The notes below the pieces were generated by a model. The model made no database searches. It had not been told where the DNA came from and saw only the letters and a list, made by a program, of their open reading frames with translations. 64,000 bases of DNA from Pararhodobacter zhoushanensis (GTDB lineage Bacteria > Pseudomonadota > Alphaproteobacteria > Rhodobacterales > Rhodobacteraceae): contig NZ_REEZ01000003.1 in the NCBI RefSeq assembly GCF_003990445.1, positions 62,001 through 126,000 on the forward strand, given 5' to 3'. Each line of letters begins with the position of its first letter. The stretch's first letter is position 1. Shown here one piece after another: positions 10,015-38,573 of this stretch. The translations under genes were made by a program, and so were the position numbers.

Positions 10015-10044
10015 AGGGGGCGTCCGACAGGGCGCCCCTTGACG

Positions 10045-22735: not shown

Positions 22736-23023
22736 ATGACCTCCGACGCGCACCTGTCACCCCCTGCCGATGCCGAGGCTATCCAGAACTGGATGGTGAC
22801 CTATATCACCTCGGTCATCGATGTTGCCGCGGACCCCTTTCCGGTTGCCGAACGATTTGACAACTATGGCCTTGATTCCATTGAGATTACGATCATGTGC
22901 GGCATGATGGAAGAAACCTATGCAATCGAGGTGGGGCCGACCGAAGTCTTTGATCATCCCAGCGTCACCGAGCTGTCTCAGCATATCGCAGGACGGCTCA
23001 AAGACAGGTCTGCCGCGGCGTGA
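22736..23023 (+). CDS. Acyl carrier protein
   Basis: 95-residue carrier protein. The phosphopantetheine attachment site is Ser48 in YGLDSIEIT, and the four-helix pattern is preserved (helix II IEITIMCGMMEE). The GLDSIE motif fits PKS/NRPS-type carriers better than the housekeeping fatty-acid ACP. It is the first gene of the putative acyl-saccharide cluster, and its stop overlaps the next gene as GTGA. It probably carries an acyl or aminoacyl group for the oxygenases downstream, possibly loaded by the acyl-AMP ligase at 36.6 kb. Confidence 0.9.
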   Translation: MTSDAHLSPPADAEAIQNWMVTYITSVIDVAADPFPVAERFDNYGLDSIEITIMCGMMEETYAIEVGPTEVFDHPSVTELSQHIAGRLKDRSAAA

Positions 23024-24327
23024 CAACGGCGGCAGATCAGCGGGGAGACGTCCGCAACGTCATGATTTGCGGCATGTTCGACATGCGCAACTTTGGCGAT
23101 CTCTTGTTCCCGCTGATTGCTGAGCATGAGCTGGGTCTGCACGGATACAACGTGCAGGCTGTGTCGCCGACCGGCGCGGCTACCGGGCTGAGCGACGCGA
23201 TGCCTTCGCGCCCGATTGCGCAGCTTTTCGACCCGGATCTGCCCTGCGCCGCCGTGGTGATCGGCGGCGGGTATCTGGTCCACACGCACCGCATGGACAT
23301 GCTGCACGAATACCGCGGCCTTGGTGTCGGGGCCTGTGCCGCGTCGTCGATGTGGCTGGGCGCGACGCTAGCGGCGGCGCTGCGTGATGTGCCGCTGGCG
23401 TGGAATGCGCCGGGTGTTCCGCACCCGCTGCGGCCCAGTTTTCAACCCCTCGCAGGCGCTGCCTTCGACGCGGCGGATTACCTGTCCCTGCGCGACCCGG
23501 GTTCGGTCCGTATGGCGGGTTTGGTTGCTGGTGGCCCGGTGCAGGTGGTTCCTGACCCGGTGCTCGGCCTTGCGCGGATGTGGCCCAAAGCCAGCTTGCG
23601 TGGCGATTTTGACCGGCTGGCGCAGCGCCTCGGGTTAACCACACGCGAGGGGATTCTGGCCGTCAGCGTGCGCCGCCGCTCGCTCGGCGATGTGCCCGTC
23701 GCAGCGTTTGCGCAAGACTTGGGCGCGCGGTGCAAGGCCTTGAACCTGACGCCGGTGATGATCGGTCTGGGCAGCGCGCATAGCGATGACCGGATCGCGC
23801 GCGAGGTATCGGCGGCGTTGACCGCGATGGGCTGCCCGAACGCGGCGCTCGATCAGCCTGAACAGTTGCGCGATATTGCGGCGCTGATCGCGTATGCCTC
23901 GGCCTATGCGGGATCGTCGCTGCACGGTTATGTTGCCGCGGCTGCCTATGGCACGCCGGGGCTGTTGGTCGCGCGTCCGGCCTACCGCAAGTTTGACGGT
24001 CTGGTGCAGCATCTGGACCGGGACGCGGACAAGGTGAACGACTGGTCGCAGGCGCTGGGCCGGTTGTCCGATGCCATCTGCCAGCCACGCACCACCCTGT
24101 CATCGGCTGTCCAGAACGCGCTGACGCAGCATTGGAACCAGATCGTTGCGGCGATCGAAGGCGGGGCCACGCCGCGCCGTGCTGCCCGGCTGCGGTTTGC
24201 GGCGCTGTCGATGGGCGAGGGGATGCGGCAGGAGAACGCACTCTGGGCCATGCTTCCCTATACCTCCGCCCGCGACAGGGCCGCAGCCCTGTCTGGCGAA
24301 GATGTCGCGCACAAGGAGCCGTTCTGA
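23020..24327 (+). CDS. Polysaccharide pyruvyl transferase family protein (copy 1)
   Basis: 435 residues. Family signs are GMFDMRNFGDLLFPLIAEH (the N-terminal N-x-GD motif), VVIGGGYLVHT, and the late GSSLHGYVAAAAYGTPGLLV with the conserved SLHG. Members add pyruvate ketals from phosphoenolpyruvate to sugars of exopolysaccharides or cell-wall polymers (CsaB, WcaK). It starts with GTG at 23020, coupled to the ACP stop. A homologue lies at 31295-32485. Some family members have other roles, so pyruvylation is likely but not certain. Confidence 0.82.
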   Translation: MTTAADQRGDVRNVMICGMFDMRNFGDLLFPLIAEHELGLHGYNVQAVSPTGAATGLSDAMPSRPIAQLFDPDLPCAAVVIGGGYLVHTHRMDMLHEYRGLGVGACAASSMWLGATLAAALRDVPLAWNAPGVPHPLRPSFQPLAGAAFDAADYLSLRDPGSVRMAGLVAGGPVQVVPDPVLGLARMWPKASLRGDFDRLAQRLGLTTREGILAVSVRRRSLGDVPVAAFAQDLGARCKALNLTPVMIGLGSAHSDDRIAREVSAALTAMGCPNAALDQPEQLRDIAALIAYASAYAGSSLHGYVAAAAYGTPGLLVARPAYRKFDGLVQHLDRDADKVNDWSQALGRLSDAICQPRTTLSSAVQNALTQHWNQIVAAIEGGATPRRAARLRFAALSMGEGMRQENALWAMLPYTSARDRAAALSGEDVAHKEPF

Positions 24328-24330
24328 CAG

Positions 24331-25194
24331 ATGACCGACGCCCGCCCCATGTCCAATGCGCTTTCCGCCGATGCCGTCGCGCAGTTCGCGCGCGACGGGG
24401 TGGTGGCGCCGATCAACGCCCTGCCGCCGGCGGACGCCCGCCAGTTGCTGGCCGATTTCGAGCGGATCGAGGAGACTCGCCACGGGCGGTTGTCCGGGCT
24501 GGTGCGGATCAAGCCGCATTTGTTGCTGCCGTTCCTGTGGGACGTGGTCCACGATCCGCGCATCGTCGATGCGGTGGCCAGCGTTCTGGGGCCTGATATC
24601 TTGTGTATCGGGTGCAGTTCGATCGACAAACCTGCTGCATCGGACGGGTATGTTGCCTGGCATCAGGATGCGACCTTCTGGGGGCTCAGCGCCACCGATG
24701 GCGCGACGGCGTGGCTGGCGCTGACCCCGTCGACACATGAGTCTGGCTGCATGGAGGTCGTCCCCGGCACCCAGACCCGGCAGCTGAACCATCTCGACAC
24801 GCAAGATCCGCAGAACATGCTTGGCGCGCGCGAAGAAGTGGCGGTCAAGGTCGATCCGGCACATGCGCGCCCGTTGATCCTGAACCCCGGCCAGATGTCG
24901 CTGCATCATCCGCTGGTGCTGCATGGCTCGGGTCGGAACACGACGGCGCAGCGCCGGTTGGGCTTTGTGATCCGCTACGTCGCGGCCAGTGTCCGGCAAG
25001 AAGGCGGGACGGCAACGCTGGTGCGGGGCTGCAACCTGTCGGGGATGGAGCTTGAACGCGCGCCCGAGGGCGAAATGCACCCCGACGCGCTGGCACGCCA
25101 CAGCGACATCGTCCGTCGTGCCGGGCGGGTGATCAGAAACGGCAAGCTGGCGCATCTGGCAGCTTCGTCGGCAAAACCGGTGGACCAGTCATGA
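24331..25194 (+). CDS. Phytanoyl-CoA dioxygenase (PhyH) family oxygenase, copy 1
   Basis: 287-residue Fe(II)/2-oxoglutarate-dependent oxygenase. The iron triad is visible: His111 and Asp113 in AWHQDATFW and His198 in LVLHGSGRN; Arg209 or Arg215 (RRLGFVIRY) would bind 2-oxoglutarate. PhyH proteins hydroxylate, halogenate or rearrange CoA- or carrier-bound substrates. The stop overlaps the next start as ATGA, and the two oxygenases are clear paralogues (both share FLWDVVHDPRI and WLALTPST). Presence in the cluster with a free ACP suggests an ACP-bound acyl or amino acid substrate. Confidence 0.87.
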   Translation: MTDARPMSNALSADAVAQFARDGVVAPINALPPADARQLLADFERIEETRHGRLSGLVRIKPHLLLPFLWDVVHDPRIVDAVASVLGPDILCIGCSSIDKPAASDGYVAWHQDATFWGLSATDGATAWLALTPSTHESGCMEVVPGTQTRQLNHLDTQDPQNMLGAREEVAVKVDPAHARPLILNPGQMSLHHPLVLHGSGRNTTAQRRLGFVIRYVAASVRQEGGTATLVRGCNLSGMELERAPEGEMHPDALARHSDIVRRAGRVIRNGKLAHLAASSAKPVDQS

Positions 25195-26009
25195 CCGACA
25201 CCTTGTCCGAGCGCTTCGCCCAGAGCGGCTATGCCGCGCCGATCCCGGTACTCGAAACGGTTGAGGTCGACGCGATCCTGTCCCAGCTGCTGGCCGCAGA
25301 AGCGCGGTTCGGCGGGCAGTTCCCGATGGCGATCAACGCCAAGGCGCATCTGCTGTTTCCCTTCCTGTGGGACGTTGTTCACGATCCCCGTATCCTGGAC
25401 GCCGTTGCGCAGATCCTCGGGCCGGATCTGTTGTGCTGGGGGTCGAGCTTTTTCTCCAAGGACGCCGGGTCCGATGATGTCGTGCCGTGGCATCAGGACG
25501 GCACCTGTTGGGGACTGGATCAGCCCAAGGCGCTGACCGTGTGGCTGGCGCTGACCCCCAGCACGCCCGAGATGGGTTGCCTGCGCGTGCTGCCCGGCAG
25601 CCACAAAACCCCGGTTCGCCACGCCATCCGCAACGCGCCATCCAGCATGTTGCCGCTGGGCGAAGAGGTCGCGCTGGAGGTGGATGAGGACCAGATCGTC
25701 GATTGCCCGCTGCGTCCGGGCGAAATGTCGATGCACCACGTCATGCTGGTCCATGGGTCGCACCCGAACCGGGCGCCCAGCGGGCGCCGCATCGGCTTTG
25801 CGATCCGTTATATCGCGGGCGATGTGGCGCAACGGCATGGCAGCCGGGGGTTTGCGACGCTGGTGCGGGGGCGCGATCACGGCACGTACGATCTGGAGCA
25901 ACGCCCCGACAAGGCCCTGTCGCCGGAGGCGCTGCGCCGCCACAAGGCGATCCTGCAACGATCCCGTGATATTGTCGCGGCCGAGGCGGCGCAGCTCGAC
26001 GGCGCTTAG
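25191..26009 (+). CDS. Phytanoyl-CoA dioxygenase (PhyH) family oxygenase, copy 2
   Basis: 272-residue paralogue of the preceding gene. The triad is intact: His101 and Asp103 (PWHQDGTCW) and His188 (LVHGSHPN). PWHQD followed by an aromatic and RIGFAIRYIAG fits the family. It is translationally coupled to copy 1 (ATGA) and ends in a four-base tail-to-tail overlap with the GT2 gene. Two tandem copies suggest two successive oxidations or action on two related substrates; a heteromer is another possibility. Confidence 0.87.
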   Translation: MTDTLSERFAQSGYAAPIPVLETVEVDAILSQLLAAEARFGGQFPMAINAKAHLLFPFLWDVVHDPRILDAVAQILGPDLLCWGSSFFSKDAGSDDVVPWHQDGTCWGLDQPKALTVWLALTPSTPEMGCLRVLPGSHKTPVRHAIRNAPSSMLPLGEEVALEVDEDQIVDCPLRPGEMSMHHVMLVHGSHPNRAPSGRRIGFAIRYIAGDVAQRHGSRGFATLVRGRDHGTYDLEQRPDKALSPEALRRHKAILQRSRDIVAAEAAQLDGA

Positions 26010-26881
26010 CCTTTGGCCAGCGTGCCGTTGGCCGCGTCAAAGACCCAGCCTTTCTCGCGGACCATGCGCGGCGGATGGCCACGCAGCGCGTTGTAGGCCC
26101 GCGAGGCTTGCTTGACCATTGCGACGGTCTTGTCCGCATCGCTGGTCGATGTGCCGCCGTGGATCTGGTGAAAGGTCGAGACGCCTTTCATGTATATCAA
26201 CTGTGTACCCGGATGGGCCACGGCGCGCGTCAGCATGTCCGGGTTGCACATCCCGCCGCCAGCGTCGGTAAAGGCCGGATCGTAGCCGCCCAGAGCGTCC
26301 CAGGTGTGCCGCGCCATGAACAGCGCGTTGGATTCCAGAATAGCCCCCGAAGTGCTGGACATTTCGGGACAGGACACCGCGACGAGATCCGCCTCGGGGT
26401 TTGGCCAGCCCGCCGTCTCCAGAAGCGCATCCTCAACGGTCTGGTTGTATCCGTCGCGCGCGCTGACCGACTGGTGGGCGGGGCCGAACTGGCGGTTCAT
26501 CGTGGCGATGACCGGGGCAGGGTGATGGGCAGCCGCCGCCCGGACACAGTCCAGCAGATTGGCCGAGGCCAAGCGCGCCCCGTCGATCCACGCGCCGATC
26601 AGCGGGGCCTTTGCCAGCGCCAATGCCTCGTTCATCGCGCCGACAGGTGAGGCGCTGGGTCGCGAGACACGACGGATCTGCGGCGCGGGCTCCATCGCGG
26701 GGGCAACGGGCAACGAGTCCGAGCCATTGTCCACGACTATGATCTCGTAGTGCAGATCATCAATGCCTTGTTGAAAGGTCCGCGACAATGACCAAAGCGT
26801 GCGTGGTAACTCGCGCGCCATGTTCCAGCAAACCACGACAACCGAGATTTCAGGAGAGTCGGCCAATTTCGCTTTCCTCAA
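26006..26881 (-). CDS. Glycosyltransferase family 2-like protein
   Basis: 291 residues of GT-A fold. The nucleotide-binding start ISVVVVCWNMARELPRTL and IIVVDNGSDS are typical GT2 features; a DxD-like site is less clear (GAWIDGARL). YDPAFTDAGGGMCNPDMLTR resembles the acceptor-site region. It has no membrane anchor. It is the only short gene of the block on the minus strand, besides the large TPR-glycosyltransferase. It probably transfers a hexose to the cluster product. Confidence 0.82.
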   Translation of the reverse strand: MRKAKLADSPEISVVVVCWNMARELPRTLWSLSRTFQQGIDDLHYEIIVVDNGSDSLPVAPAMEPAPQIRRVSRPSASPVGAMNEALALAKAPLIGAWIDGARLASANLLDCVRAAAAHHPAPVIATMNRQFGPAHQSVSARDGYNQTVEDALLETAGWPNPEADLVAVSCPEMSSTSGAILESNALFMARHTWDALGGYDPAFTDAGGGMCNPDMLTRAVAHPGTQLIYMKGVSTFHQIHGGTSTSDADKTVAMVKQASRAYNALRGHPPRMVREKGWVFDAANGTLAKG

Positions 26882-26935
26882 TGATGTGAAAGGCCTAGGT
26901 TGACCGGACCATAGTCATGTCAGGCCTTTGCAACA

Positions 26936-28078
26936 ATGCCCCATGCGGACAATCAGGCACGGCGGCGGGCGTCAATCGCGGACGGTTGTCGCGATCCGAT
27001 CGAGAGCAGAGCGCCGCACAGGATCGGGTTCGGCAAGTGGCGCGTGTCGCGGATGGCCGATGTTCGCGGCGTTATGTCCGACGCCGCGACCACCGTCGAT
27101 CTTGTCCTGTCCAAACGACTTGCACTGGAATGTCAGCGCCAGAACCAGACCGACGCCTCGCTGTTGACGGTCTTTGGGGCTGTCCTGCGTGCTCACCGTG
27201 TACCCAATGACGCCGAACGGCGCGCGGCCAACGCGCTGACCAAGCGTCTGGCCGAACAGGTGCCGGATCTCGACGTCGCCGGATTTTTGCGCGACCGCAT
27301 TACCTGCCGGACGACAATCGAAGTTACTGCCGGGCTTGTCCGACCGCTTCTCGGCCGGTTGCGGGCGACGGCGTTCGGGCTGGATGAGGCGCTGGCAAAC
27401 GCGACCGAAGCCCAGTTTGCCCAGACTCTTTACGACATTGACGAGTTGGGTATAGACGATCTGTCGCGTCTGCAATCCCGCGCGGCCGAGGCCTTTGCGC
27501 TGCTTGAGCAGTTGGATGTTCAGCACTCGACCTGCGGCGACATACCTGCCCTGCATTGGCTCTCACCGGCATTTTTGGCCTTGAGACCGCTGACGCATCT
27601 CACCGTTAACATGATGTGCAACCTTGCCGAAACGCCCGATCTGCAAGAGCGCCTGCGCGCCGAGCCCGCGCTGCGCGCGCCTTATCTGCTGGAGGTAGAG
27701 CGCCTTTATGGGAGCTTGCGGTATGTGTGGCGCCAAAGCGGGGCGCAGCCGCTGGAACTGGGCGATGTCACGCTGCCGCCCGGCAGTCTGGTGCTGCTCG
27801 ATCTGGTTTCGGCCAATCGCGATCCGGCGGTTTGGGACGAGCCCGACACGCTGCGTCTGGATCGCCCGCGCGCTGTGACTGCAAGTTTCGCCTTTGGGCC
27901 TTTGGGCTGTACCGGCGCCCTGGCAAGCCGTCTGTTTCTGGCGCGCGTTCTGGACGCGCTGCTCGACGGCTGGCGTGTAAGCCTGCCCGCGTCGGCTGCT
28001 GAAGCCCGGTGCGAGCTTGCGACCTGGTCGGTCATTCGGGGCTACGAGCGGTGCCCGCTGGTCGTTGAGCCGATCTGA
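26936..28078 (+). CDS. Divergent cytochrome P450
   Basis: 380 residues. P450 landmarks: GKWRVSRMADVRGVMSDA near residue 34 (B region), the ExxR of helix K at Glu253-Arg256 (LLEVERLYGS), VSANRDPAVWDEP, and the haem loop FAFGPLGCTG with Cys325 as haem ligand. The I-helix stretch around 214-232 (LALRPLTHLTVNMMCNL) does not show the usual A-G-x-x-T oxygen-activating motif. Coding resemblance extends to the first ATG at 26936, so that start is used. It may hydroxylate or couple a carrier-bound substrate, or have unusual chemistry if the missing threonine is real. Confidence 0.78.
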   Translation: MPHADNQARRRASIADGCRDPIESRAPHRIGFGKWRVSRMADVRGVMSDAATTVDLVLSKRLALECQRQNQTDASLLTVFGAVLRAHRVPNDAERRAANALTKRLAEQVPDLDVAGFLRDRITCRTTIEVTAGLVRPLLGRLRATAFGLDEALANATEAQFAQTLYDIDELGIDDLSRLQSRAAEAFALLEQLDVQHSTCGDIPALHWLSPAFLALRPLTHLTVNMMCNLAETPDLQERLRAEPALRAPYLLEVERLYGSLRYVWRQSGAQPLELGDVTLPPGSLVLLDLVSANRDPAVWDEPDTLRLDRPRAVTASFAFGPLGCTGALASRLFLARVLDALLDGWRVSLPASAAEARCELATWSVIRGYERCPLVVEPI

Positions 28079-28081
28079 GTA

Positions 28082-31000
28082 CTATGGGAACCGCGCGCGC
28101 AACCGTTCATCGACGTGCGCCCAGATGGTGTCCATCTTGCTTTCCCACGATAGCGCTTTTTTCAGCGCATCGGGCATCTGCTTGCGTGGCTGAGTGCTCG
28201 CTTCGATCAGCGTGTCATTCACGGCGCGGATAAAGCCGTCGGTGTCGGTCGCTGCCCGGATCTCGCCCTGCATGTCGTCCAGATTGGCGACGCCAGACGT
28301 GACCACGGGCACCCCCAGCGAGCGATAGACGTACACCTTCAGCGGGTTCATCCGGTCGGACATATCGTTGCGGATATGCGGAACGATGGCGACATCAAAG
28401 CCCGCGATACAGGCCTGCGCCGCGTCGTGACGTCGGACCCCCAGAACATGCACATTCGGCAAGGCAAGCATCCGCGCCCGTTCAGCCTTGAGGGACAGTT
28501 TGCCGATCAACACGATCTGCACATCGGGCCGTGCGCGCGACAGCGACTCGACCAGATCGAAATCGAAGCGGTCGTTCATATTGCCGCAATAGCCAACGAC
28601 CGGCCCCCCCAGCCGCGTGATCTCATCCGCCGGGCGCGGGGGTGCCTGCGGTGTGTCGACGCCATTGGGGACCATCAAAGTCTGCAACCCTTCGCCTGCC
28701 AGGGCGTCGGCAACCGGCACGCAATTGGCCAGTGCCAAATCGGTGTGTTGCGCCATGAAACGGTAGTTGTCGCGGATCATCCGATCCTTGAGTGCCGAGT
28801 TCGTCCAGAACCGTTGGTCGTCAATGTAATCGGACACGATAAAAGGAAAGTTGAGCCGCGCCTGCACATCGGCAAACCCGTCGACCACCGGGCAGACCCA
28901 GGCGATACAGTTGTCGATCATCTCCAGTCCGCGCAGCCAGGACTCGACCACATTGGGGAAGCTGTCAGGCGACAGCAGGCGCGTGCCCAGCACGGTGTCA
29001 CCCGCAGTTCCCATCACAAAGCTGCGGCGAAACAGATTGCCCTCATCCGCCAGTCCCGCCAACCGCAACAGCGCGTTGGCCGAGCTCATCTGCCGTTCGT
29101 TGTCAACCGGGGGGCGCATCGGGTTGGTGTTGAATTGCAACTGCTTGGCCGCAATCGGCGCGTCGATATGCAGGACGCGCCCGATCTCGGGGCGGCGCGC
29201 CAATTCGCGCACCAGCATGTCCTGACGGCGGCCATACAGCCCGGAATCGTTTTGCTTCCAGAAGAAGGCGACGTTGATCGGCTTGTCGGAGTCGATCGTG
29301 CGGGCCAGCGACGGGGCGCAGCGCAAATGCGGTGCCGCAAGGGCCGACAGATCTGCCGGCAAGACGCCCGGCATCTCGGTGTCGATGAAACGCAGCAGGC
29401 GCCCGGCATCGGCGGTCAGGCGCTGGGTGGACTGACGGGCGGTCGTGATCGCGTCCAGCGCGCGACGCTGGTTGGGCCCGTACGCCATCTCTTGCGCAAA
29501 GAACGGATGGACGCCTTGGGGGCGCGGCTGGGCAAGAACCGCGCGCAGGCGCTCGCTCAGAACTTCGCCTTTGGCAATCGCCATGGCGGCCCCGGCCTCG
29601 ATGACATCGGCAACGGGCGGGACATCGGTGATCAGCACAGGCGAGCCGACGGCCACCGCGTCCGTCAGCTTCGCCGGGGTTTGGCTTTGCGAGATCGGGC
29701 TTTCGCGATCTTGCAGCAGCACCACCAGATCCGCCATCGCATTCAGGTCCAGCACCCGCGAGAACGGCTGCTCGTACAGCCGTTTCAGGCGCAGGCCGGG
29801 CAGGGCCTTGAGCGCGTTTTCCATGTCGGTATCGACCGCGGATCCGGCAATGCACAGCACAAGATCGGGATCATTCTGAGCCACGACCGCCTGCGCCAGT
29901 TCCAGCAGGCCCTTGTGCCGACGCGGGGTGCCCAGAAACAGAACCACCCGGTCTTGCGGCGCAAACCCGTGCGTCAGGCGCGTTTGCGCGCGCGCAGCAA
30001 TCGCGCGTTCGGCGTCCGCGTCCCGGCGGCCGTGCCGGACCAGAGCCGCACCGTGGCGCGCGCTCAGAACCGGGTTGCAGGCGGTCAGGCCATCGACCAT
30101 CGGCACCATGCCCATCCCCAGCTCGGTCCAGATCTTGCCTTGCGGGCGTTGCCAGTCCTGCGGCTCCATGCGCTCGACAAAGCTTTGAAAGTCGCGCGGC
30201 GCTTCGCCGTTCACAAAGGCCAGCTCATCGTCATCGAGGTCGCACAGCACGGTCGCGCCGTGTACGTGTTTGTAGAGCAAACCGATCAGCATCGACGGAA
30301 AGCGCGGCTTCGAGATCCACACCGTCTTTGCCGGCCATTCCTGTACCAGCCGCAAGCTGCCTTCAACGAGGTGACGAAAATGCGGGGCGTTCCAGCCTAT
30401 GATCGGCACCGTGCGGTCGGCGTCGGCCAGCGGGGGCCACAGCTCGGTGCCATACATCGGGAACATTGGTCCGGCGACGGCAGTGGGCACGGCATCGCTG
30501 ATCGTTTCAGCCATGGTGATCCCCCGACCCACCACGTTGTGGGCTATGTCCCAGGAGACAACCAGCACACGTTCTTGCGGGGTCGCGGTCAGGAAATCTG
30601 CCGGCCCTTTCGCGGGCCAGATCCGCAGCGGCGCGGGCGCGGTCCGGGTGCGCTGTTTCTCGACCTCCTCGGCCAGCTTGTCGAGCCGGGTCTTGATTTT
30701 CGCGTTGTCGGGCATGCGCGCATGCGCGTCCCGCAGATGAACCAGCGCGCGATCACTGTCGGCATGGCACATCGCCAGGTCGGCTTCGATCAGCGGTGTC
30801 CATGGGAATGCAGGCGCGATTGTGCGCAAGGTCGCAAGATGCGTTTCCGCGTTCTCCAGCGCCCCGGTTTTAATGCAGATATCGGCCAGCCGGATCAAGA
30901 CGACTGCGGTCGGTCCGGCCTTGTCGAGTGCTTGCGAATAAAGCTGCGCGGCCTGTTGAAACTGACCCGCGTTGAACTGGGCTTCGCCCTGTATCAGCAA

Positions 31001-31102
31001 GGTATTATACGAGGGGCTGTCGGTGTCCGAAGGCCGCGCTGGCGCGGTCTGCTCGGGGCCTTTCGTCAGATGCGGCGCGGTCTTGCCGTCCAGAGTTTTC
31101 AT
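28082..31102 (-). CDS. Large TPR protein with two GT-B glycosyltransferase halves
   Basis: 1006 residues. The N-terminal part (about 25-150) is tetratricopeptide repeats (GEAQFNAGQFQQAAQLYSQA, LADICIKTGALENAETHLAT). A first GT-B-like region (about 160-560) contains VVLFLGTPRRHKGLLELAQA. A second (about 610-1005) contains VGYCGNMNDRFDFDL and late NPLKVYVYRSLGVPVV, typical of GT1/GT4 C-terminal domains. Two glycosyltransferase units in one chain suggest addition of two sugars or of a repeat unit. ATG 31102 is preferred to a TTG eleven codons upstream; neither has a strong ribosome binding site. Confidence 0.78.
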   Translation of the reverse strand: MKTLDGKTAPHLTKGPEQTAPARPSDTDSPSYNTLLIQGEAQFNAGQFQQAAQLYSQALDKAGPTAVVLIRLADICIKTGALENAETHLATLRTIAPAFPWTPLIEADLAMCHADSDRALVHLRDAHARMPDNAKIKTRLDKLAEEVEKQRTRTAPAPLRIWPAKGPADFLTATPQERVLVVSWDIAHNVVGRGITMAETISDAVPTAVAGPMFPMYGTELWPPLADADRTVPIIGWNAPHFRHLVEGSLRLVQEWPAKTVWISKPRFPSMLIGLLYKHVHGATVLCDLDDDELAFVNGEAPRDFQSFVERMEPQDWQRPQGKIWTELGMGMVPMVDGLTACNPVLSARHGAALVRHGRRDADAERAIAARAQTRLTHGFAPQDRVVLFLGTPRRHKGLLELAQAVVAQNDPDLVLCIAGSAVDTDMENALKALPGLRLKRLYEQPFSRVLDLNAMADLVVLLQDRESPISQSQTPAKLTDAVAVGSPVLITDVPPVADVIEAGAAMAIAKGEVLSERLRAVLAQPRPQGVHPFFAQEMAYGPNQRRALDAITTARQSTQRLTADAGRLLRFIDTEMPGVLPADLSALAAPHLRCAPSLARTIDSDKPINVAFFWKQNDSGLYGRRQDMLVRELARRPEIGRVLHIDAPIAAKQLQFNTNPMRPPVDNERQMSSANALLRLAGLADEGNLFRRSFVMGTAGDTVLGTRLLSPDSFPNVVESWLRGLEMIDNCIAWVCPVVDGFADVQARLNFPFIVSDYIDDQRFWTNSALKDRMIRDNYRFMAQHTDLALANCVPVADALAGEGLQTLMVPNGVDTPQAPPRPADEITRLGGPVVGYCGNMNDRFDFDLVESLSRARPDVQIVLIGKLSLKAERARMLALPNVHVLGVRRHDAAQACIAGFDVAIVPHIRNDMSDRMNPLKVYVYRSLGVPVVTSGVANLDDMQGEIRAATDTDGFIRAVNDTLIEASTQPRKQMPDALKKALSWESKMDTIWAHVDERLRARFP

Positions 31103-31294
31103 GTCGCTGTCGCAGGGTCCGGTTCTTTTGGCCAAAACGCACGAATGCGGTTGCTGAGGGTGTTGCCGGGATGATTTACTAATGCAATAGCCAAATCAAT
31201 TCAGAACGGTAGAAGGCAGGGGGTCGACGGCGAGCGTTCCGTGGTCCGATGCAGGGGTAACGGGTGTCATGTCGAAAACAAGCGGCTCTTGAAG

Positions 31295-32485
31295 ATGGCA
31301 ACTGCACGCCAGACCCGTCGCGTCGCCATCCTGGGCACATTTGACGTCGAGAATTACGGCGATTTGTTGTTCCCGCTGGTCGCGCAGGCGTGTCTTGCAG
31401 AGAGCGGGATCGAGGTCGTTGCCGTGTCGCCGACCTCGGAACTGACCCGCTATCGCGATGCGATCCGGCCAATATCGTTCAAGGAAATGACCGCGACAAT
31501 CGAGAGTTTCGATGCTGTTTTGATTGGTGGCGGCAATATCGTCCACCTGCATGATTTCGGTTTGCCGACCTATGCCGCCAGCGCCTACCCGTCGCTTTGG
31601 GTCGGTGCCACGGCGCATGCGGTGCTGCACGGCAAAGCGGTGCTGTGGAATGCGCCCGGCGTGCTGGCTCCGCGTGATCCGGGCGAGCCGCCAGCGTGGT
31701 TGCGGCGGGTTGTCGAGGCGGCGGACCACTTCATGGTGCGCGATGAGGCCAGCGCCCGCGCACTGGCGCGGTGGTCGGGGCGCAGGCCAGAGGTTCTGCC
31801 TGACACGGCGCTGGATCTGCCGCGCCTGTGGTCTCCTGCAACGCTTGCCGCGCGGTTCGGCACCGTCAAGAAAAGCCTCGGCGTCGCTGCGCAAACGCCG
31901 GTTGTCGCCGTGCATGTCAAGCGCCGCAGCCTTGGCGCGCTGGATGTCGCGCGCTTTGCGGCGGCGCTGGATGCGGCGCTGGGACAGGCGGGTGCGGTGG
32001 GGATCTTGCTGGCGCTGGGACGATGCCATGGCGATCACGAGCTGGTGCAGGAGCTGCACGGGCTGATCCCCGACCGCACTGCTCCCTTCGACGGGGCCGA
32101 GGCGCTGGGCGACGTGGCAGCAGTGATCGCGGGCGCGCAGGCGCATATCGGAGCCTCGCTGCACGGCCACATCACGGCGGTCGCGTATGGGACGCCCGCG
32201 CGGCTGGTGGCGGTTCCGGCGCTGCACAAGTTCATGGGGCAGGCCGAGCAAACGTCCCGTCAGGACGAGCTGGCCTCAGACTGGACGGCCGCATTGGCCG
32301 ACCTGCCCGCGCTTGTGACCGCGCCGCGCCGGTCTCTCGATCCCGCAGTTGGAACACGGCTGCAAGCCCATTGGCAGGCTGTGAGCGCCCTGGCGAAAGC
32401 CGAGCAGCCGCGCCAGAAGCGGGCGGCGGTGTTCGACGATCCTGATCCCGACACCGCGCTGGAAAAGGTGCTTCGGGTATCGTAG
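31295..32485 (+). CDS. Polysaccharide pyruvyl transferase family protein (copy 2)
   Basis: 396 residues, homologous to the product at 23020-24327: VAILGTFDVENYGDLLFPLVA matches the copy 1 start, IGGGNIVHLHDFG the second motif and GASLHGHITAVAYGTPARLV the third. The ATG at 31295 is chosen; open frame continues to a GTG at 31241 without family similarity. It is divergent from the large TPR-glycosyltransferase across a ~190-base region that probably holds both promoters. Function as for copy 1; the pair may modify two different sugars. Confidence 0.82.
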   Translation: MATARQTRRVAILGTFDVENYGDLLFPLVAQACLAESGIEVVAVSPTSELTRYRDAIRPISFKEMTATIESFDAVLIGGGNIVHLHDFGLPTYAASAYPSLWVGATAHAVLHGKAVLWNAPGVLAPRDPGEPPAWLRRVVEAADHFMVRDEASARALARWSGRRPEVLPDTALDLPRLWSPATLAARFGTVKKSLGVAAQTPVVAVHVKRRSLGALDVARFAAALDAALGQAGAVGILLALGRCHGDHELVQELHGLIPDRTAPFDGAEALGDVAAVIAGAQAHIGASLHGHITAVAYGTPARLVAVPALHKFMGQAEQTSRQDELASDWTAALADLPALVTAPRRSLDPAVGTRLQAHWQAVSALAKAEQPRQKRAAVFDDPDPDTALEKVLRVS

Positions 32486-32552
32486 TGATGCGTCTAACAC
32501 GTTTTGGTTGTGTGTCCGCTTGTTTTGGGCGTCAGAGCGAATGAGGGGCATA

Positions 32553-34214
32553 ATGGATCAGGCCAAAAGCGAAACCTGGGATCATGCACGGGTCAATCGG
32601 CTGATCGAACAGAAAGACTACGCAAACGCCGCATCGCAGATCGCCGCGTTTCTGGACCAGCAACCCAAGTCGGTCGCGCCACGGATCGCACGGGTGCGGT
32701 TGCATCTGGCGACGGGCGAGGGAGCCGAGGCGCGCGCCCTGGCAACGCAGCTTCTGGCCGACGCACCTGACAATCTTTGGGTCTGGGCGCTTGGCATTCA
32801 GGCCCTGACGCAGGACGGTGACATCGAGGGTGCCGTTGCATTGTTTGGCGACGGTCAGGCGCGGCTTTCGCCCGATGAAAACGCGCTCACGGCGGCGGTG
32901 AACGGGCTGTTGCCCGCGCTGGGCAGCTGGTCTGCGCAGGTCGCTTTTCTGAAAGACGCGCTTGCCCGGCAACCCGACAGCCGCACCGTGCAACTGCGTC
33001 TTGCCAGCCGTGCGATGCAAGTCGGCGAGTTCGATCTTGCCCAGCAACTGCTGCAAAAGGCCGAAGAGACAGGGCCGCTGCCAGCCTATGCCAAAAGCAT
33101 TCAAAGCCGTCTTTATCCGATGACGGCCAGCATGGCCGACTCGGCCGAGCGGGTCGCGCAGGACATCAGCCAGGGCAATGAGACCTCGGAAGCGCTGTGC
33201 CGCCTGTGCCGCTTTGCGGCAGCGGCGGGCAATTTCGAGCAGGCGGAGCGTGCTCTGATGCGCGCGCTCGATCTGTTTCCGGCGGACTGGCGGGTGCTTT
33301 ACCGGCTCAACCGGGTCTTCCTGCCTGCCGCGCAGGATACCGCCGTGTACGCGCGTCTGGCGACGCAGGCCGAGCGTGGCGAGGTTGACCAGAACTGGCA
33401 GCTGCAATTCGCCCTGTTCGCGCTGCGTGCGGGGCAGGTGGACACGGCGCAGCGGGTTCTGAGGCAGCTCACGCAGGATCCGCGCATCGGTGAGACGGTG
33501 CTTTCCGTGCTGGCGGCGCTTGAGGCGCTGGGCGACGCGCCGCCACGGGCAGGGGTGCTGCAGGATTCGGATCTGTGCGTGGTCAGGGCAGAGAACCCTC
33601 AAGGGACGCTGTTTGTCTTCGGCAGTTTTCTGGGCGGGGTAAACTATGTGCCCAATCGCAATCTGGATGCGCTGTTTGCCGATCTTGCGGTGAATGTCGT
33701 CTATTTGCGCGATCCCTACGGGAGGGCCTTTCTGAAGGGCCTGCCCGGTTTCGGTGACGGGGAAGCCGATTTGCATCACAGGCTGCAAGTGCTGGCAGCG
33801 GAGCTGGGCGGCTCGAAGATCGTCACGTTGGGCAGTTCGGCGGCGGGCTACGCCGCTTTGCGCGCAGGTCTGGCGATCAAGGCAAACGCGGTGATATCGC
33901 TGGCCGGGCTGGTTGCGCCGTCGCGCGACCACGACGCGCAGGCAACGCATCTCAGGCAGGGCGACGCCGAGCTGTTCCGCGAGGCCAAAGAGCCGGTGGA
34001 CCTGAGGCCGGCACTGGCGGGCCAGCCGCAGACGCATCTGACGCTGGTTATCGGCGACAGCTATGCGCCGGATGTCGCGCGCAGTGACGCGGTGAAGGGG
34101 ATCGCCAACGCGACGGTCATCGCCGTTCCGGGGGCGACCACCCACCATGTCGGCATGCCTGCGATGGCCAGCGGGCTGTTGCGGGATCTGGTGCGCGACG
34201 CGTTTGACCGGTGA
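32553..34214 (+). CDS. TPR protein with C-terminal alpha/beta-hydrolase-like domain
   Basis: 553 residues. The first ~350 are helical TPR-type repeats (for example NRLIEQKDYANAASQIAAFL and AAAAGNFEQAERALMRALDL). The last ~200 look like an alpha/beta hydrolase: a nucleophile elbow LGSSAAGYAALRAG near residue 430, and late AVPGATTHHVGMP with a candidate catalytic His. The ATG at 32553 has GAGGGG before it. The next gene starts within its stop (GTGA). It might be a deacylase, thioesterase or transferase acting on the cluster product, or a scaffold; this is inference. Confidence 0.65.
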   Translation: MDQAKSETWDHARVNRLIEQKDYANAASQIAAFLDQQPKSVAPRIARVRLHLATGEGAEARALATQLLADAPDNLWVWALGIQALTQDGDIEGAVALFGDGQARLSPDENALTAAVNGLLPALGSWSAQVAFLKDALARQPDSRTVQLRLASRAMQVGEFDLAQQLLQKAEETGPLPAYAKSIQSRLYPMTASMADSAERVAQDISQGNETSEALCRLCRFAAAAGNFEQAERALMRALDLFPADWRVLYRLNRVFLPAAQDTAVYARLATQAERGEVDQNWQLQFALFALRAGQVDTAQRVLRQLTQDPRIGETVLSVLAALEALGDAPPRAGVLQDSDLCVVRAENPQGTLFVFGSFLGGVNYVPNRNLDALFADLAVNVVYLRDPYGRAFLKGLPGFGDGEADLHHRLQVLAAELGGSKIVTLGSSAAGYAALRAGLAIKANAVISLAGLVAPSRDHDAQATHLRQGDAELFREAKEPVDLRPALAGQPQTHLTLVIGDSYAPDVARSDAVKGIANATVIAVPGATTHHVGMPAMASGLLRDLVRDAFDR

Positions 34215-36568
34215 CGACGGCTGACCAGCGTGCGCAGCGGCAAGGACAAGGGAAGGGCGTGGCTTTGACGGGACGTGATTTCGACGGGCTCTGCTCGATC
34301 TGCGGCGCGGCGGGTACGTTCGTGCGCGGCGACCACCGGTCTGTGCGCGAATCCTACCCCTGTCCGAAGTGCCGGTTCACCCTGCGGTGGCGCGATCAGG
34401 CGGGTGTTATTCTGGACGAGTTCGCGCGCGGGCAGGCGGTTTCGCTGGATGCACTGATCGCAAAAGGCCTGCTGGATACCGTCGATATTTTCGAGCCCGC
34501 GCTGCGAGGCCCCTTCGTTCGCCGTTTTCGTGGTCTCCCCGGCTATGTGCAGTCTTATTTCACCCCCGAACTGCCCTTGGGCAGCACCCGGGACGACGGC
34601 GTGCGCAACGAGGATCTGACGCAGCTGACCTTTGCCGATGACAGTTTTGATCTGGTGATCACCAGCGACGTGATGGAGCATCTGCCTGATATCGAGGCCG
34701 CGTTTGCCGAGATCCTGCGCGTGCTGCGACCCGGTGGGTGTCACGTCTGCTCGATCCCGAATGACTTTCCCTTTCCCGAGACCACCAGCCCGCGGGTGGA
34801 AATCCGCGACGGGCAAGAGTTCAACCTCAAGCCGCCGGTGTATCATAACTCGGGTGATGGCTCGACGTGTCTGGTGTACACTGACTACGGCGCGGATCTG
34901 ACGGATCTGATCCGCTCGCTGGGCGGGCATCTGTCCGTGGTGCGGCGCAGTGGCGTGCTCGAGACATGTAACACCAACGCGACCTTCGTAATGCGTAAAC
35001 TGGGGCCGGTAACTGCAGCCCGGCAGACACCCCGCACAGGGGCCGCTGCGCCCGCATCACCGACCGTGACGACGAAAGATCAAAGCCCGATGACCGCGAC
35101 CAAGCAATGCCCGATCTGCGACGGAACCACGTTTCAGGACTTTGGCGGGCGCAAGGATGCGCGCTGTTCAACCTGTCAGGGGGTCGAGCGGACGCGGTTG
35201 ATGTACATGGCGATTGAGCGCTTGGGCGGCTTCGAAGCAGGCAAGCGCGTGTTGCATTTTGCCCCCGAACTGGGGCTGGGGCGGCGGTTTCTGGCGCTGT
35301 CGGGCGAAAAGTATCACCCCGTCGATCTCGCTCCCGAACGCTATAAAAGCAAGGTGTTCACGGTCGGCAAAATGGATATGTGCAGCGATCTCGCCGGGAT
35401 CGCCGACGACAGCTATGATCTTATCGTGCACAGCCATGTGCTTGAGCATGTGCCCTGCGATGTGACGGGCGTGTTGCAGCAGCTTGATCGCATTCTTGCG
35501 CCGGGCGGCCTGCATTTCCTCTGCGTGCCCATCCGTGGGGACGAGACGATCGAGGATCTGTCCCGCAGCCTGACCGACGCCGAGCGCATGGAACGCTTCG
35601 GGCAGGAAGACCATGTGCGGGTGTTTGGCAGCAGAGATCTGCAAGCGCAACTGGCGCAGGTCTGGGGGCCCGAAAAGCATCTGATCGACCCCTTGGCGCT
35701 GTTTGAACCGGAGGTTTTGCGCCGCGCCGCTATCCCGGCAGAGGCGTGGAAGGGCGTTTCTGGCCACAGCATTTTTTACTACCGCAAGGGCGGGCAATCC
35801 CCCGCTGACGCCAAGCCCGTTACTGCCGCGCCTGCGCCCAAAGCGCCGCCGGCCTTTCCAAAAGAAGATGTCTTCCCCGGCTCAAAAATCACCCATGGCC
35901 TCAAGTTTCTGCGCCGGGACAACCCGTGGCCGGAATTCCCTTGGGGCGAGCACGCGCCGTTCATGCTGGCCCTCGACGCCAACGGACGGGGCGGGCGCGA
36001 GATCATCACGCGTGAGATCGTCGACAAGAATGTCACCCTGATGGCCGAGGTCGGCTGTTTTCTGGGCGGGTCCGTGCGGCATTGGCTGGATGCAAAGCCC
36101 GACCTTACCGTGATCGGAGTGGACCCGTGGGATGGCAACTGGGCGGCCTATATCGAGCGGATGGTGAACCATCCGCAAATGGCGCGTCACGTCTGGCACA
36201 TGGACGACGCCGAGGTCGCGCGCATCGTCCAGATGCTGCGCCAGTATGGCAACTACGGCGTCGCGCTGAATAACCTGCGGCTTTACAAAGAGCGCTTCAT
36301 CCCCGTGCGCCGCTTCTCGCCCGAGGCGCTGTTCTATCTCTCTGAACGCCAGATCCCGATCGAAATGATCTATATCGACGCGTTCAAGCACCGCGACGAT
36401 CTGGATGCGGCCTATGCCTATTATCCCAATGCGATCCTGAGCGGCGACGACTGGCTCTGGCCGGACGAAACCGGCAAATTTGTCATGCAGGATCACATCA
36501 AGGCCTTCGCCCACGAGCACGGGTTCGAGATCGAGAGCAGCCGTCAGACATGGCTCTTGCACCGGTGA
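34211..36568 (+). CDS. Three-domain methyltransferase with two zinc ribbons
   Basis: 785 residues. A first Cys4 ribbon (Cys28/31/51/54) precedes a class I SAM methyltransferase (about 65-265; DSFDLVITSDVMEHLPD, VLRPGG). A second Cys4 ribbon (Cys300/303/319/322) precedes a second methyltransferase (about 325-535; LHFAPELGLGRRFLAL, YDLIVHSHVLEHVPCD). A Pro/Ala-rich linker (about 540-565) leads to a third class I-like domain (MAEVGCFLGGSVRHWLD, VIGVDPWDGNW, IEMIYIDAFKHRDDL). It starts with GTG at 34211, coupled to the gene before. It probably O-methylates sugars; the repeated ribbon-plus-enzyme pairs suggest internal duplication. Confidence 0.8.
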   Translation: MTTADQRAQRQGQGKGVALTGRDFDGLCSICGAAGTFVRGDHRSVRESYPCPKCRFTLRWRDQAGVILDEFARGQAVSLDALIAKGLLDTVDIFEPALRGPFVRRFRGLPGYVQSYFTPELPLGSTRDDGVRNEDLTQLTFADDSFDLVITSDVMEHLPDIEAAFAEILRVLRPGGCHVCSIPNDFPFPETTSPRVEIRDGQEFNLKPPVYHNSGDGSTCLVYTDYGADLTDLIRSLGGHLSVVRRSGVLETCNTNATFVMRKLGPVTAARQTPRTGAAAPASPTVTTKDQSPMTATKQCPICDGTTFQDFGGRKDARCSTCQGVERTRLMYMAIERLGGFEAGKRVLHFAPELGLGRRFLALSGEKYHPVDLAPERYKSKVFTVGKMDMCSDLAGIADDSYDLIVHSHVLEHVPCDVTGVLQQLDRILAPGGLHFLCVPIRGDETIEDLSRSLTDAERMERFGQEDHVRVFGSRDLQAQLAQVWGPEKHLIDPLALFEPEVLRRAAIPAEAWKGVSGHSIFYYRKGGQSPADAKPVTAAPAPKAPPAFPKEDVFPGSKITHGLKFLRRDNPWPEFPWGEHAPFMLALDANGRGGREIITREIVDKNVTLMAEVGCFLGGSVRHWLDAKPDLTVIGVDPWDGNWAAYIERMVNHPQMARHVWHMDDAEVARIVQMLRQYGNYGVALNNLRLYKERFIPVRRFSPEALFYLSERQIPIEMIYIDAFKHRDDLDAAYAYYPNAILSGDDWLWPDETGKFVMQDHIKAFAHEHGFEIESSRQTWLLHR

Positions 36569-36575
36569 GCCGCAC

Positions 36576-38573
36576 GTGAGCTTGCCAGCCCTTCTGCTGC
36601 CACAGCAGATCGCCCGGAGCGCCGTGCGGCGGCCCGAAAAACTGGCGTATGCTTTTGTCGGGCCTGCGTCCGAGCCGGAAGAACTGAGCTATGCGGCGTT
36701 GCTCGCGCGCGCCTCGGGTGTCGCCGCGATGCTGCGCGCGGCGGACTGTGGCAAGGGCGCACGGGTCGCGCTGGTTTTCGAGCCCGGTCTGAACTTTGCC
36801 GTCGCCCTGCTGGGCGCGTTCCTTGGCGGTTGCGCGGCAGTGCCGGTCGCGGTTCCGTCCAGCGCCAAGGCGCGCGGGCGCGCCGATGCCATCCTGCGCG
36901 AGAGCGGCTGCAGGGCGGTGCTGACCGACACGCAAACTCTTGTCGGTGTGCCCGACAGCTGGCCCGCCGAGATCGCGCGCGCGCGGTGTCTGCGGGTCGA
37001 CACGGCGGTCGACTCGCCGGTGATCGCGCCGCAAACCAGCCCGGACGATATCGCCTTTCTTCAGTATACCTCGGGCTCGACCGGTGCGCCCAAAGGCGTT
37101 GTGGTGACACACCGGGCCTTGCTGGGTCAGATGCACGCCATCCAGCGCGCGGTGCAAGGCAGCGAGGACGAGCGCGTCGTTACCTGGCTCCCGCCCGAGC
37201 ATGACATGGGGCTTGTCGGCGGTGTCTTGTTCCCCTGCTGGCTTGGCGGGTCGGTCTATATCCTGTCCCCGCAAAGCTTTGTGCGCCGTCCGGTGCTGTG
37301 GCTGGACACGATCAGCCGGTATCGCGGCACGATCACCGTCGCGCCCAACTTCGCCTTCGAGCTTTGTGTGCGTACCATATCGCCCTCCCGTCGGGCCGAA
37401 CTGGACCTGTCGTCGTGCCGCGTGCTGCTCAACGGCTCGGAACCGGTGCGCCCCGAGACGATCGACGCCTTTGTCGAGACTTTCGCGGATGCAGGCCTGT
37501 CGCCCGGTGCCGTCATGCCCTGCTACGGTCTGGCCGAGGCAACGCTGCTGGTCGCCGGAGCAGTACGCGGCAGCGGCGCGCTTTCCGCGTGGTTTGACCC
37601 AACGGCATTGGACCAGCGGCAGGTAACAGAGGTGGCTGAGGGGCAGGGGCGGCGGCTGGTGTCGTCGGGCCTGGTGCGCACCTCGCACCCCGTGCGCATC
37701 GTCGACCCCGACGCGCGCCGTACCTGCCCACCGGACAGGATCGGCGAGATCTGGATCGCTGGCGACAGCCTCGGCTCGGCCTATCACAACCGCCCCGACG
37801 CCAGTGAGGCCACTTTCGGTGCCCGGCTGGACGATGGGTCGGGCCCCTATCTGCGCAGCGGCGATCTGGGGTTTTTGTGGCTGGGTGAGCTGTTCGTGAC
37901 CGGCCGGATCAAGGACGTCGTGCTGTGGCACGGGCGCACGCTGCATGCCTCGGATCTGGAGACCAGCCTTGAGGGCGTCGACCCCGGTCTGCGCCGGGGA
38001 CGGGTTGCGGTGCATCAGCGCCCGGACGGCGCGGTGGCGGTGTTGTGCGAGATCACGCCCGGGCGGCTGGCGGAAGGCGAGGCGCTGGCCGCGCGGATCT
38101 GGCGGCAATTGCTGGACCGGTCAGGGGTCGAGGCGGCGCATGTCCTGTTGTTGCGCACGGGCAGTCTGTTGTGGACAACCAGCGGCAAACTGCGCCGCGC
38201 CGACAGCGATGCCGCGCTTGCCGAGACACCGGAGCGGGTGTTGCTCGACTGGTCCCCGCGCGCTGCGTCTCAGACGGCGCAGGCGCGCGCGGTGGCGATC
38301 GCGCAGCTGAAACAGGCGCTGGCCGGGACGGGCGATCCCTATGCCGCCTATCTTGGCTTTTTCGCCGACTGGATCGCGGTCGCCACGCAGCAAGAGGTGG
38401 ACGCGGTCGACCCGATGCTCGCCTGGGCCGATCAGGGGCTGGATTCGCTGATGATCACCGAGATGATCCTCGATCTTGAAGCCGCCACCGGGCAGACCCT
38501 GACAGCCGATATCCTGTTTGAGCTGCCTGAGCCTGCAGCCCTCGCCGCCGCCCTTGCGCGCGGAGCGCTGTAG
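36576..38573 (+). CDS. Fatty acyl-AMP ligase fused to an acyl carrier domain
   Basis: 665 residues. The adenylation part (about 1-565) has the P-loop YTSGSTGAPKGVVVTH, LPPEHDMGLVGGVLFP and CYGLAEATLL motifs that mark FAAL-type acyl-AMP ligases. The C-terminal ~80 residues are a carrier domain with Ser624 in QGLDSLMIT. Such di-domain proteins activate a fatty acid as its adenylate and load it onto the attached phosphopantetheine. The GTG at 36576 lies eight bases after the methyltransferase stop. No ketosynthase or condensation domain accompanies it, so the acyl chain is probably passed to the cluster's oxygenases or a transferase. Confidence 0.88.
   Translation: MSLPALLLPQQIARSAVRRPEKLAYAFVGPASEPEELSYAALLARASGVAAMLRAADCGKGARVALVFEPGLNFAVALLGAFLGGCAAVPVAVPSSAKARGRADAILRESGCRAVLTDTQTLVGVPDSWPAEIARARCLRVDTAVDSPVIAPQTSPDDIAFLQYTSGSTGAPKGVVVTHRALLGQMHAIQRAVQGSEDERVVTWLPPEHDMGLVGGVLFPCWLGGSVYILSPQSFVRRPVLWLDTISRYRGTITVAPNFAFELCVRTISPSRRAELDLSSCRVLLNGSEPVRPETIDAFVETFADAGLSPGAVMPCYGLAEATLLVAGAVRGSGALSAWFDPTALDQRQVTEVAEGQGRRLVSSGLVRTSHPVRIVDPDARRTCPPDRIGEIWIAGDSLGSAYHNRPDASEATFGARLDDGSGPYLRSGDLGFLWLGELFVTGRIKDVVLWHGRTLHASDLETSLEGVDPGLRRGRVAVHQRPDGAVAVLCEITPGRLAEGEALAARIWRQLLDRSGVEAAHVLLLRTGSLLWTTSGKLRRADSDAALAETPERVLLDWSPRAASQTAQARAVAIAQLKQALAGTGDPYAAYLGFFADWIAVATQQEVDAVDPMLAWADQGLDSLMITEMILDLEAATGQTLTADILFELPEPAALAAALARGAL

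Follow-up and report, generated by a model that had tools for sequence, protein, structure and literature searches.

The locus studied here raises the question of what is made by a group of neighbouring genes that combines acyl activation, oxygenation, pyruvyl transfer, glycosylation and methylation. The window, i.e. the whole 64,000-nucleotide stretch of the Pararhodobacter zhoushanensis genome (G000) that was analysed, had been interpreted in a sequence-only reading as containing an eleven-gene block at 22736-38573, in which a carrier-protein-based acyl pathway is joined to glycosylation and methylation without the participation of a ketosynthase (KS). All eleven genes are present with the families assigned to them, most with Pfam scores over the cut-off (Table 1), and the two PhyH proteins match PF05721 at 95 and 107 bits.

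Table 1. Genes of the block, with positions in the window and the features on which their assignment is based
Gene	Position	Strand	Domains and motifs
Free acyl carrier protein (ACP)	22736..23023	+	PF00550, 46 bits; Ser attachment site in GLDSIE
PPT1, polysaccharide-pyruvyl-transferase family	23020..24327	+	PF04230, 59.3 bits (curated cut-off 25.3)
PhyH1, Fe(II)/2-oxoglutarate oxygenase	24331..25194	+	PF05721; HQD
PhyH2, Fe(II)/2-oxoglutarate oxygenase, paralogue of PhyH1	25191..26009	+	PF05721; HQD
GT2, family 2 glycosyltransferase	26006..26881	-	PF00535, 35.5 bits
P450-like protein	26936..28078	+	PF00067, 24.8 bits, weak (cut-off 22.8); retains haem Cys and ExxR, lacks the usual I-helix motif
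Double GT-B, TPR and two GT-B glycosyltransferase domains	28082..31102 (ORF start possibly 31135)	-	PF13692, PF00534, PF14559; 1017-aa ORF
PPT2, polysaccharide-pyruvyl-transferase family	31295..32485 (ORF start possibly 31241)	+	PF04230, 55.4 bits (curated cut-off 25.3)
TPR-hydrolase, TPR repeats and alpha/beta-hydrolase-like domain	32553..34214 (ORF start possibly 32508)	+	PF14559; conserved Ser/Asp/His; structure model
MT3, three methyltransferase regions, third weak	34211..36568	+	PF08241, PF13489; PF13578 at 22.5 bits, below cut-off (26.3)
FAAL-carrier, fatty acyl-AMP ligase and C-terminal carrier domain	36576..38573 (start inferred; longest ORF begins 36480)	+	PF00501, 215 bits; PF00550, 33 bits; GLDSLM

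The block had also been proposed to be expressed in a coupled manner. Four-base start/stop overlaps do exist, in the form of GTGA between ACP and PPT1 and between the TPR-hydrolase gene and MT3, and of ATGA between PhyH1 and PhyH2; the stops of GT2 and PhyH2 overlap tail to tail, likewise by four bases. A single coupled operon, however, does not hold, because nine genes lie on the plus strand and two (GT2 and double GT-B) on the minus strand, which produces four strand changes along the block. Scans for promoters and terminators returned no more signals than shuffled sequence. Ten of the genes have dN/dS values of 0.08-0.24.

The same gene set recurs in other genomes. One of 18 other genomes from the genus (G018) carries all eleven genes at 72-98% identity, with the P450-like protein at 72% and the remaining ten at 93-98%; PPT genes occur in two of the 19 genus genomes. 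Most block genes were also found in G330, G776, G559 and on a plasmid of Sphingobium RAC03, and fewer in G708, where the fetched stretch gave no PhyH, GT-B or MT3 matches. The free ACP is matched in all six other clusters (38-95% identity). Gene order is permuted between lineages carrying the cluster; PPT1 is followed directly by PhyH1-PhyH2 in G000, G330, G776 and G559, a single open frame joins PPT2 and the TPR-hydrolase in both G559 and G776, and apparently in G330 too (34551-37697), and RAC03 encodes a PPT-MT fusion. The contig of G559 ends inside GT2, and PPT1 of G018 was matched as two pieces in different frames. The set is thus conserved as a unit across genomes (reduced in G708) and represents one pathway; the lack of co-occurrence that would have refuted the sequence-only reading was not seen. 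The alternating strands would suit chance neighbours without a common pathway, a reading that we reject and consider virtually negligible in view of the recurring content in several lineages, the permuted order and the shared open frames.

Further searches were negative in their respective scopes: megablast of plasmids with the block and tblastn of phages with PPT2 gave no match, the surroundings of a PhyH match on a Ruegeria plasmid hold no other block genes by annotation, and a route to sphingomonad genomes via a GH3 neighbour led to none (0 of 115). Signs of mobility were seen at three places: an integrase gene adjoins the G776 cluster, the RAC03 copy is plasmid-borne (with an MFS transporter gene beside it), and a second locus of G000, described below, adjoins a tRNA-Thr gene.

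The reported lack of a ketosynthase is true inside the window, where tblastn with the orthologous KS of G000 itself found none, but not for the pathway. In each of G330, G776 and G559, the KS gene comes immediately after that of the FAAL-carrier protein, and the methyltransferase MTx lies in these clusters as well, whereas in G000 a KS, a malonyl-CoA-ligase-like (MatB-like) gene and MTx form a second locus on another contig (locus B, G000:C54:181833-186194). Judged by their sequences, the three locus-B genes are orthologues of genes residing inside the cluster in relatives: the G000 KS is 67% identical over 96-97% to the cluster KS of G330 and G776, the MatB-like protein 70% identical to that of G330, and MTx 66% and 59% identical to those of G776 and G330, respectively. 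A KS tree supports the four-row clade at 97/100, the G559 KS having no settled place in the tree. The KS occurs in two of the 19 genus genomes, the same two that carry the block and its PPT genes; as G000 is closely related to G018, this shared presence counts as one event. A FAAL with a carrier domain goes together with a cluster-type KS somewhere in the genome in five of five cases (G000, G018, G330, G776, G559), and a FAAL without carrier with no KS in the fetched stretch in two of two (RAC03, G708).

The Cys-His-His motifs of the G000 KS are present (DTACSS, EAHGSG, GHLEAAAG); a pattern search did not match the EAHGxG motif in the G776 KS. The best PDB matches of the MatB-like gene are malonyl-CoA synthetases. 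Its frame is open in G018 and broken in G000 and G330, and no orthologue was seen in G776 or G559, so that this gene cannot be a constant source of malonyl units. G330 and G776 also have an SGNH-like gene, for which the window gave no match and locus B one of only 21 residues. Repeats common to the ends of the two loci (A and B) are limited to matches of 10-15 bases.

At the sequence level, both PhyH proteins, the KS of G000 and the hydrolase keep their expected catalytic residues. Most top NCBIfam matches of the FAAL-carrier protein are FAAL families, all below their equivalog or subfamily cut-offs; its best PDB sequence matches are FAAL-type, the first three being FAALs as far as we are aware, and by sequence this AMP-binding protein resembles FAALs more than CoA ligases. 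In NCBIfam, the free ACP has a weak match to the N-terminal carrier of Pks13. In PhyH1 and PhyH2, HQD and the distal His (the HxD...H facial triad) are invariant in six of six aligned rows. The PDB sequences nearest to the PhyH profile are 6zyk/6zyl, which we take to be ThoJ (208 bits for 6zyk), and SyrB2/CytC3-like Fe/2OG enzymes (99 bits for CytC3). In Fe(II)/2OG halogenases of the SyrB2 type, Gly or Ala replaces the Asp of HxD. The block proteins differ from SyrB2 and CytC3 in keeping HxD, which argues for hydroxylases; the halogenase reading is rejected on this ground.

PPT1 and PPT2, like PhyH1 and PhyH2, are products of old duplications. Ser300, His302 and Gly303 of PPT1 are invariant across six aligned rows, and its structure model has a pLDDT of 77 and a pTM of 0.80; PPT profiles found no PDB sequence at E 0.001, nor even at E 10. 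The P450-like protein keeps the haem-ligand Cys (in FAFGPLGC) and ExxR (as EVER) in alignments. The P450 I-helix motif is (A/G)Gx(D/E)T; it is missing from the aligned G000, G018 and G776 proteins, and the region reads AGIETT in G708 and AGADS in RAC03. Assignment as a P450-derived glycosyltransferase activator (TIGR04515) was rejected at 44 bits against a cut-off of 343, the haem Cys being kept. The first two methyltransferase regions of MT3 pass Pfam. The ‘hydrolase’ part of the TPR-hydrolase has no Pfam match; one Ser, one Asp and one His are invariant in three aligned homologues, and an AlphaFold model (two sequences; mean pLDDT 74, pTM 0.58) places Ser428-Ser429 between strand 422-428 and helix 429-441. 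In this model the position resembles a nucleophile elbow, and with the conserved Asp and His the domain would be alpha/beta-hydrolase-like.

We consider it somewhat probable that these genes encode an acyl/polyketide-glycan pathway which starts with the FAAL, is apparently mobile and in G000 is divided between two loci. The FAAL would adenylate a fatty acid and load it onto a carrier, either its own or the free ACP, and the KS would extend it by a unit derived from malonyl. The carrier-bound chain may then be hydroxylated by PhyH1 and PhyH2, perhaps together with the P450-like protein; PPT1 and PPT2 would place pyruvate ketals or related groups on the new hydroxyls or on sugars. As many as three sugars could be attached by GT2 and the pair of GT-B domains, methylation would fall to MT3 and MTx, and the TPR-hydrolase would release or transfer the chain. 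The predicted product is a small, acidic, methylated and glycosylated hydroxy-lipid. A more specific version is tentative, and we regard it as possible though doubtful: the FAAL/KS lipids would form a new family, whose carrier-bound acyl chain is hydroxylated by the two oxygenases and ketalised at these hydroxyls by the two dedicated PPTs before glycosylation. A mobile cluster, at times divided between two loci, would thereby yield a pyruvate-ketal lipid glycoside.

Along the lines of the sequence-only reading, the product could instead be a glycan or glycolipid of the cell surface, pyruvylated and methylated, with PPT1 and PPT2 forming ketals on sugars and the acyl part serving just as an anchor. 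This reading draws on the PF04230 matches, a family shared with the CsaB-type S-layer/capsule pyruvyl transferases, on a weak CsaB similarity (28 and 52 bits, far below the equivalog cut-off of 213), on the three GT domains and on the presence of EvdO and SnoK, which act on sugars, among the PDB matches of PhyH. Against it, the block proteins scanned gave no match to a flippase, a polymerase, a priming transferase, a glycan ABC exporter or any sugar-nucleotide enzyme. The direct succession of PPT1 and the PhyH pair in four genomes and the KS that belongs to the pathway in the G000, G330, G776 and G559 lineages also speak against it, and the MFS transporter beside the RAC03 cluster would suit a small molecule equally; we hold the surface glycan to be unlikely.

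Capsule loci often contain genes of the GT, PPT and MT families, and the block might be taken for an ordinary locus of capsule or LPS synthesis to which tailoring genes have been added. Yet no capsule core genes (Wzx/Wzy, ABC exporter, priming transferase) were matched among the eleven block proteins, the recurring set centres on FAAL, ACP, PPT and, mostly, PhyH and KS, and it occurs in just two of the 19 genus genomes; we reject this explanation as very improbable. A protein glycosylation or lipidation system, with a protein as the acceptor and the TPR proteins presenting it, might be read from the TPR repeats of the GT-B and hydrolase genes and from O-GlcNAc transferase among the PDB matches of the TPR protein. 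That similarity is confined to the generic TPR repeats, however, and no acceptor protein gene was recognised in the recurring set, which leaves this reading with a low probability.

We found no described counterpart of the gene set in the literature searched, as the earlier reading had anticipated; searches for 6ZYK/6ZYL gave only chance text matches and for CP059262 none. FadD32-Pks13, FadD23 and FadD28 belong to FAAL-initiated lipid/polyketide pathways, in which an acid is adenylated by the FAAL for transfer to a carrier before a KS acts. The pathway proposed here would resemble them in this; it differs in that the KS is stand-alone, with no AT match in Pfam. We know of no counterpart in those pathways to the two PhyH, the two PPT, double GT-B and MT3. 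The nearest chemical precedent is chitinimine, likened by the family and description of its PF04230-type transferase: tailoring of a hydroxylated acyl chain in the chitinimine and megapolipeptin pathways has been attributed, as a proposal, to a ‘polysaccharide pyruvyl transferase’, with chitinimine acquiring a pyruvate-derived cyclic acetal (PMC13291983). As described there, both arise from PUFA-synthase-like and PKS-NRPS machinery with hydroxyls obtained via ketoreduction, unlike our set with its FAAL, oxygenases and GTs, in which no NRPS was seen (PMC13291983).

The cluster represents a rare type that recurs in several lineages and unites an unusual combination of enzymes. It illustrates that a second locus can hold genes of a pathway, such that the window alone leads to the wrong conclusion that there is no ketosynthase. 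Furthermore, it makes testable the idea that the large ‘polysaccharide pyruvyl transferase’ family may act also on carrier-bound lipid chains.

The eleven genes of the block, in the families proposed by the sequence-only reading, are all present in the window (see table). On the plus strand, 4-base overlaps join ACP to PPT1 (like PPT2 a polysaccharide-pyruvyl-transferase-family protein), PhyH1 to PhyH2 (both Fe(II)/2-oxoglutarate oxygenases) and TPR to the three-region methyltransferase MT3; gaps of 3 and 7 bases separate PPT1 from PhyH1 and, given the inferred start of the fatty acyl-AMP ligase (FAAL), MT3 from FAAL. The accompanying claim that the block does without a ketosynthase (KS) turned out to be an effect of the window, as an orthologous KS is encoded elsewhere in the same genome, at locus B, and a KS lies within the clusters of genomes G330, G776 and G559.

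Coordinates and gene orders of the block, its surroundings and related clusters
Feature	Sequence	Coordinates	Order or remarks
AIR-synthase-type (AIRS) fusion gene	window	16846-19149	
tRNA-Met	window	19164-19248	
Mechanosensitive-channel gene	window	20380-22482	just upstream of block
Segment collinear with G018	window	22482-45529	93% DNA identity; one small break near 42500
Block	window	22736-38573	ACP-PPT1-PhyH1-PhyH2 (+), GT2 (-), P450 (+), double GT-B gene (-), PPT2-TPR-MT3-FAAL (+)
P450-like gene	window	26936-28078	
Locus B	G000:C54 (own genome)	181833-186194	KS, MatB-like, MTx; outside window
tRNA-Thr	G000:C54	186156-186231	directly beside KS-MatB-MTx segment
SGNH-hydrolase-like gene	L053 (G776)	9206-10261	between MT3 and FAAL
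SGNH-hydrolase-like gene	L001 (G330, CP059262.1)	2370-3587	between MT3 and FAAL
Cluster	G330		MT3, SGNH-like(-), FAAL-carrier, KS, MatB-like, MTx(-), ACP, PPT1, PhyH1, PhyH2, GT2(-), P450, GT-B(-), PPT2, TPR
Cluster	G776		GT-B, MT3, SGNH-like(-), FAAL-carrier, KS, MTx(-), ACP, PPT1, PhyH1, PhyH2, GT2(-), P450, PPT2-TPR (one open frame), phage integrase
Cluster	G559		MT, FAAL-carrier, KS, MT, TPR-PPT2 (one open frame), ACP, PPT1, PhyH1, PhyH2, GT2(-) at contig end
Cluster	RAC03 plasmid		two MTs(-), PPT-MT fusion, TPR, PPT, ACP, GT-A, PhyH, FAAL, PhyH, P450, GT-B; last ten same strand
Cluster	G708		TPR, MT, PPT in two frames, PPT, FAAL, P450, ACP, GT-A

A search for PF00109 in eight chosen genomes identified a KS, encoded by an open frame of 651 residues, in the window's own genome (G000) and in G018, and found no such KS in the other four genus members among the eight. 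By tblastn the KS of G000 shares 67% identity, over 96-97%, with the copies in the clusters of G330 and G776. A 13-row tree unites the KS of G000, G018, G330 and G776 in one clade (support 97/100); the KS of G559 sits on a long branch whose position is uncertain, the cluster group having support 65/87. At locus B the KS adjoins a malonyl-CoA-synthetase-like (MatB-like) gene, with best PDB matches 4fut and 4fuq, and the methyltransferase MTx, 66% identical to the G776 copy. Of the MatB-like copies, that of G018 has an open frame and those of G000 and G330 have broken ones, and no orthologue was seen in G776 or G559. At E 1e-100 the KS occurs in two of 19 genus genomes, which are also the two that carry the PPT genes; because G000 and G018 are close relatives, this co-occurrence is one event and counts once. 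Independent support for the predicted membership of the KS comes from its in-cluster position in G330, G776 and G559. Regarding the tRNA-Thr gene, tRNA genes are typical integration sites.

The gene set is rare. PPT1 is present in two of 41 genomes, own included, and a PPT profile matched two of the 19 genus genomes (own and G018) and, in the family of G559, G559 itself (1 of 17); in the large genome draws, where counts are lower bounds, it matched at least 2 of 385 genomes across the class (own, G559), at least 3 of 391 across the order (own, G708, G776) and at least 1 of 398 across the phylum (own). FAAL at E 1e-100 was recovered from the own genome only (1/293). G330 was found by a short-pattern scan of genome contigs, and a plasmid collection yielded the cluster of Sphingobium sp. 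RAC03. Best-piece identities to the window genes are 72-98% in G018, 38-66% in G330, 41-68% in G776 (GT-B excepted, at 24%), 34-53% for the genes on the G559 contig (MT3 matched along only a quarter of its length, at 26%; neither P450 nor GT-B lies on that contig), 28-52% in RAC03 (P450 and MT3 covered over only 39% and 26% of their length) and 26-45% in G708, where PhyH, GT-B and MT3 found no match. Relative to G330, the window order is circularly permuted and lacks both the SGNH-like gene and the segment KS-MatB-MTx. The SGNH-like proteins of G776 and G330, which we so label from motifs, are 56% identical and have no Pfam match; in G000 a weak 21-residue match to them occurs upstream of the KS.

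CP059262.1 is titled as an Exiguobacterium profundum MAG; its fetched stretch has 69% G+C and its cluster is otherwise met in Alphaproteobacteria-like genomes, so the label looks wrong. The sequence contains ambiguous bases and broken frames. For the window itself, megablast of the flank downstream of the block against plasmids gave mostly Rhodobacterales matches, which suggests a host in that order. The mechanosensitive-channel gene is mostly missing from the corresponding place in G018, where the match is confined to 36 residues. Some 8 kb upstream of the point at which synteny with the window resumes, G018 carries a 58-base fragment containing the 3' portion of the tRNA-Met, and the caspase-domain and transposase-like genes in between suggest an element integrated at the tRNA. 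The neighbouring AIRS gene, fused to a pyridine-nucleotide oxidoreductase domain, we take to be probably a selenophosphate synthase fusion.

PPT1 and PPT2 separate with support 94/93 (12 rows); RAC03 PPTa, which we count as PPT2, branches basally on the PPT1 side when the tree is midpoint-rooted. In a tree of 10 rows, the PhyH1 and PhyH2 sequences from four clusters likewise separate (100/99), with both RAC03 sequences left unplaced. G330 pairs with G776, leaving G000 outside, for PPT1 (99/98), PhyH1 (95/94) and PhyH2 (91/92). Together, these paralogue splits and this sister grouping argue that the block genes were largely inherited jointly after old duplications.

The HQD motif and distal His are invariant in all six PhyH rows, hence the predicted hydroxylase function; the closest PDB sequences are 6zyk, CytC3 and SyrB2. 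The P450-like protein retains Cys and ExxR; an I-helix motif was not found in G000, G018 or G776, and is present as AGIETT in G708. Its gene is the fastest to diverge between G000 and G018 (dS 0.50, dN/dS 0.33, against 0.13-0.23 and 0.08-0.24 for the other ten), a difference suggestive of allele replacement or rapid change, and its role may be changing. FAAL bears a carrier in G000, G776 and G559 (alignment) and in G018 and G330 (coverage), and lacks one in RAC03 and G708. In the TPR-hydrolase Ser, Asp and His are conserved, the Ser sitting at a strand-helix turn of the predicted model; that of PPT1 (pLDDT 77, pTM 0.80) alternates strands and helices.

Our literature search, mostly outside subscription titles, found no paper describing this gene set. 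Chitinimines carry a pyruvate-derived cyclic acetal on a C22 chain, and its formation is ascribed to a putative polysaccharide pyruvyl transferase (PMC13291983), a precedent for PPT1 and PPT2 acting on a hydroxylated chain, as they might by analogy in the block. We infer the product, step order and acceptors. The block is one real, recurring pathway that appears to be mobile; we read it as FAAL/KS lipid biosynthesis in a variant form, distinguished by its unusual set of tailoring genes.
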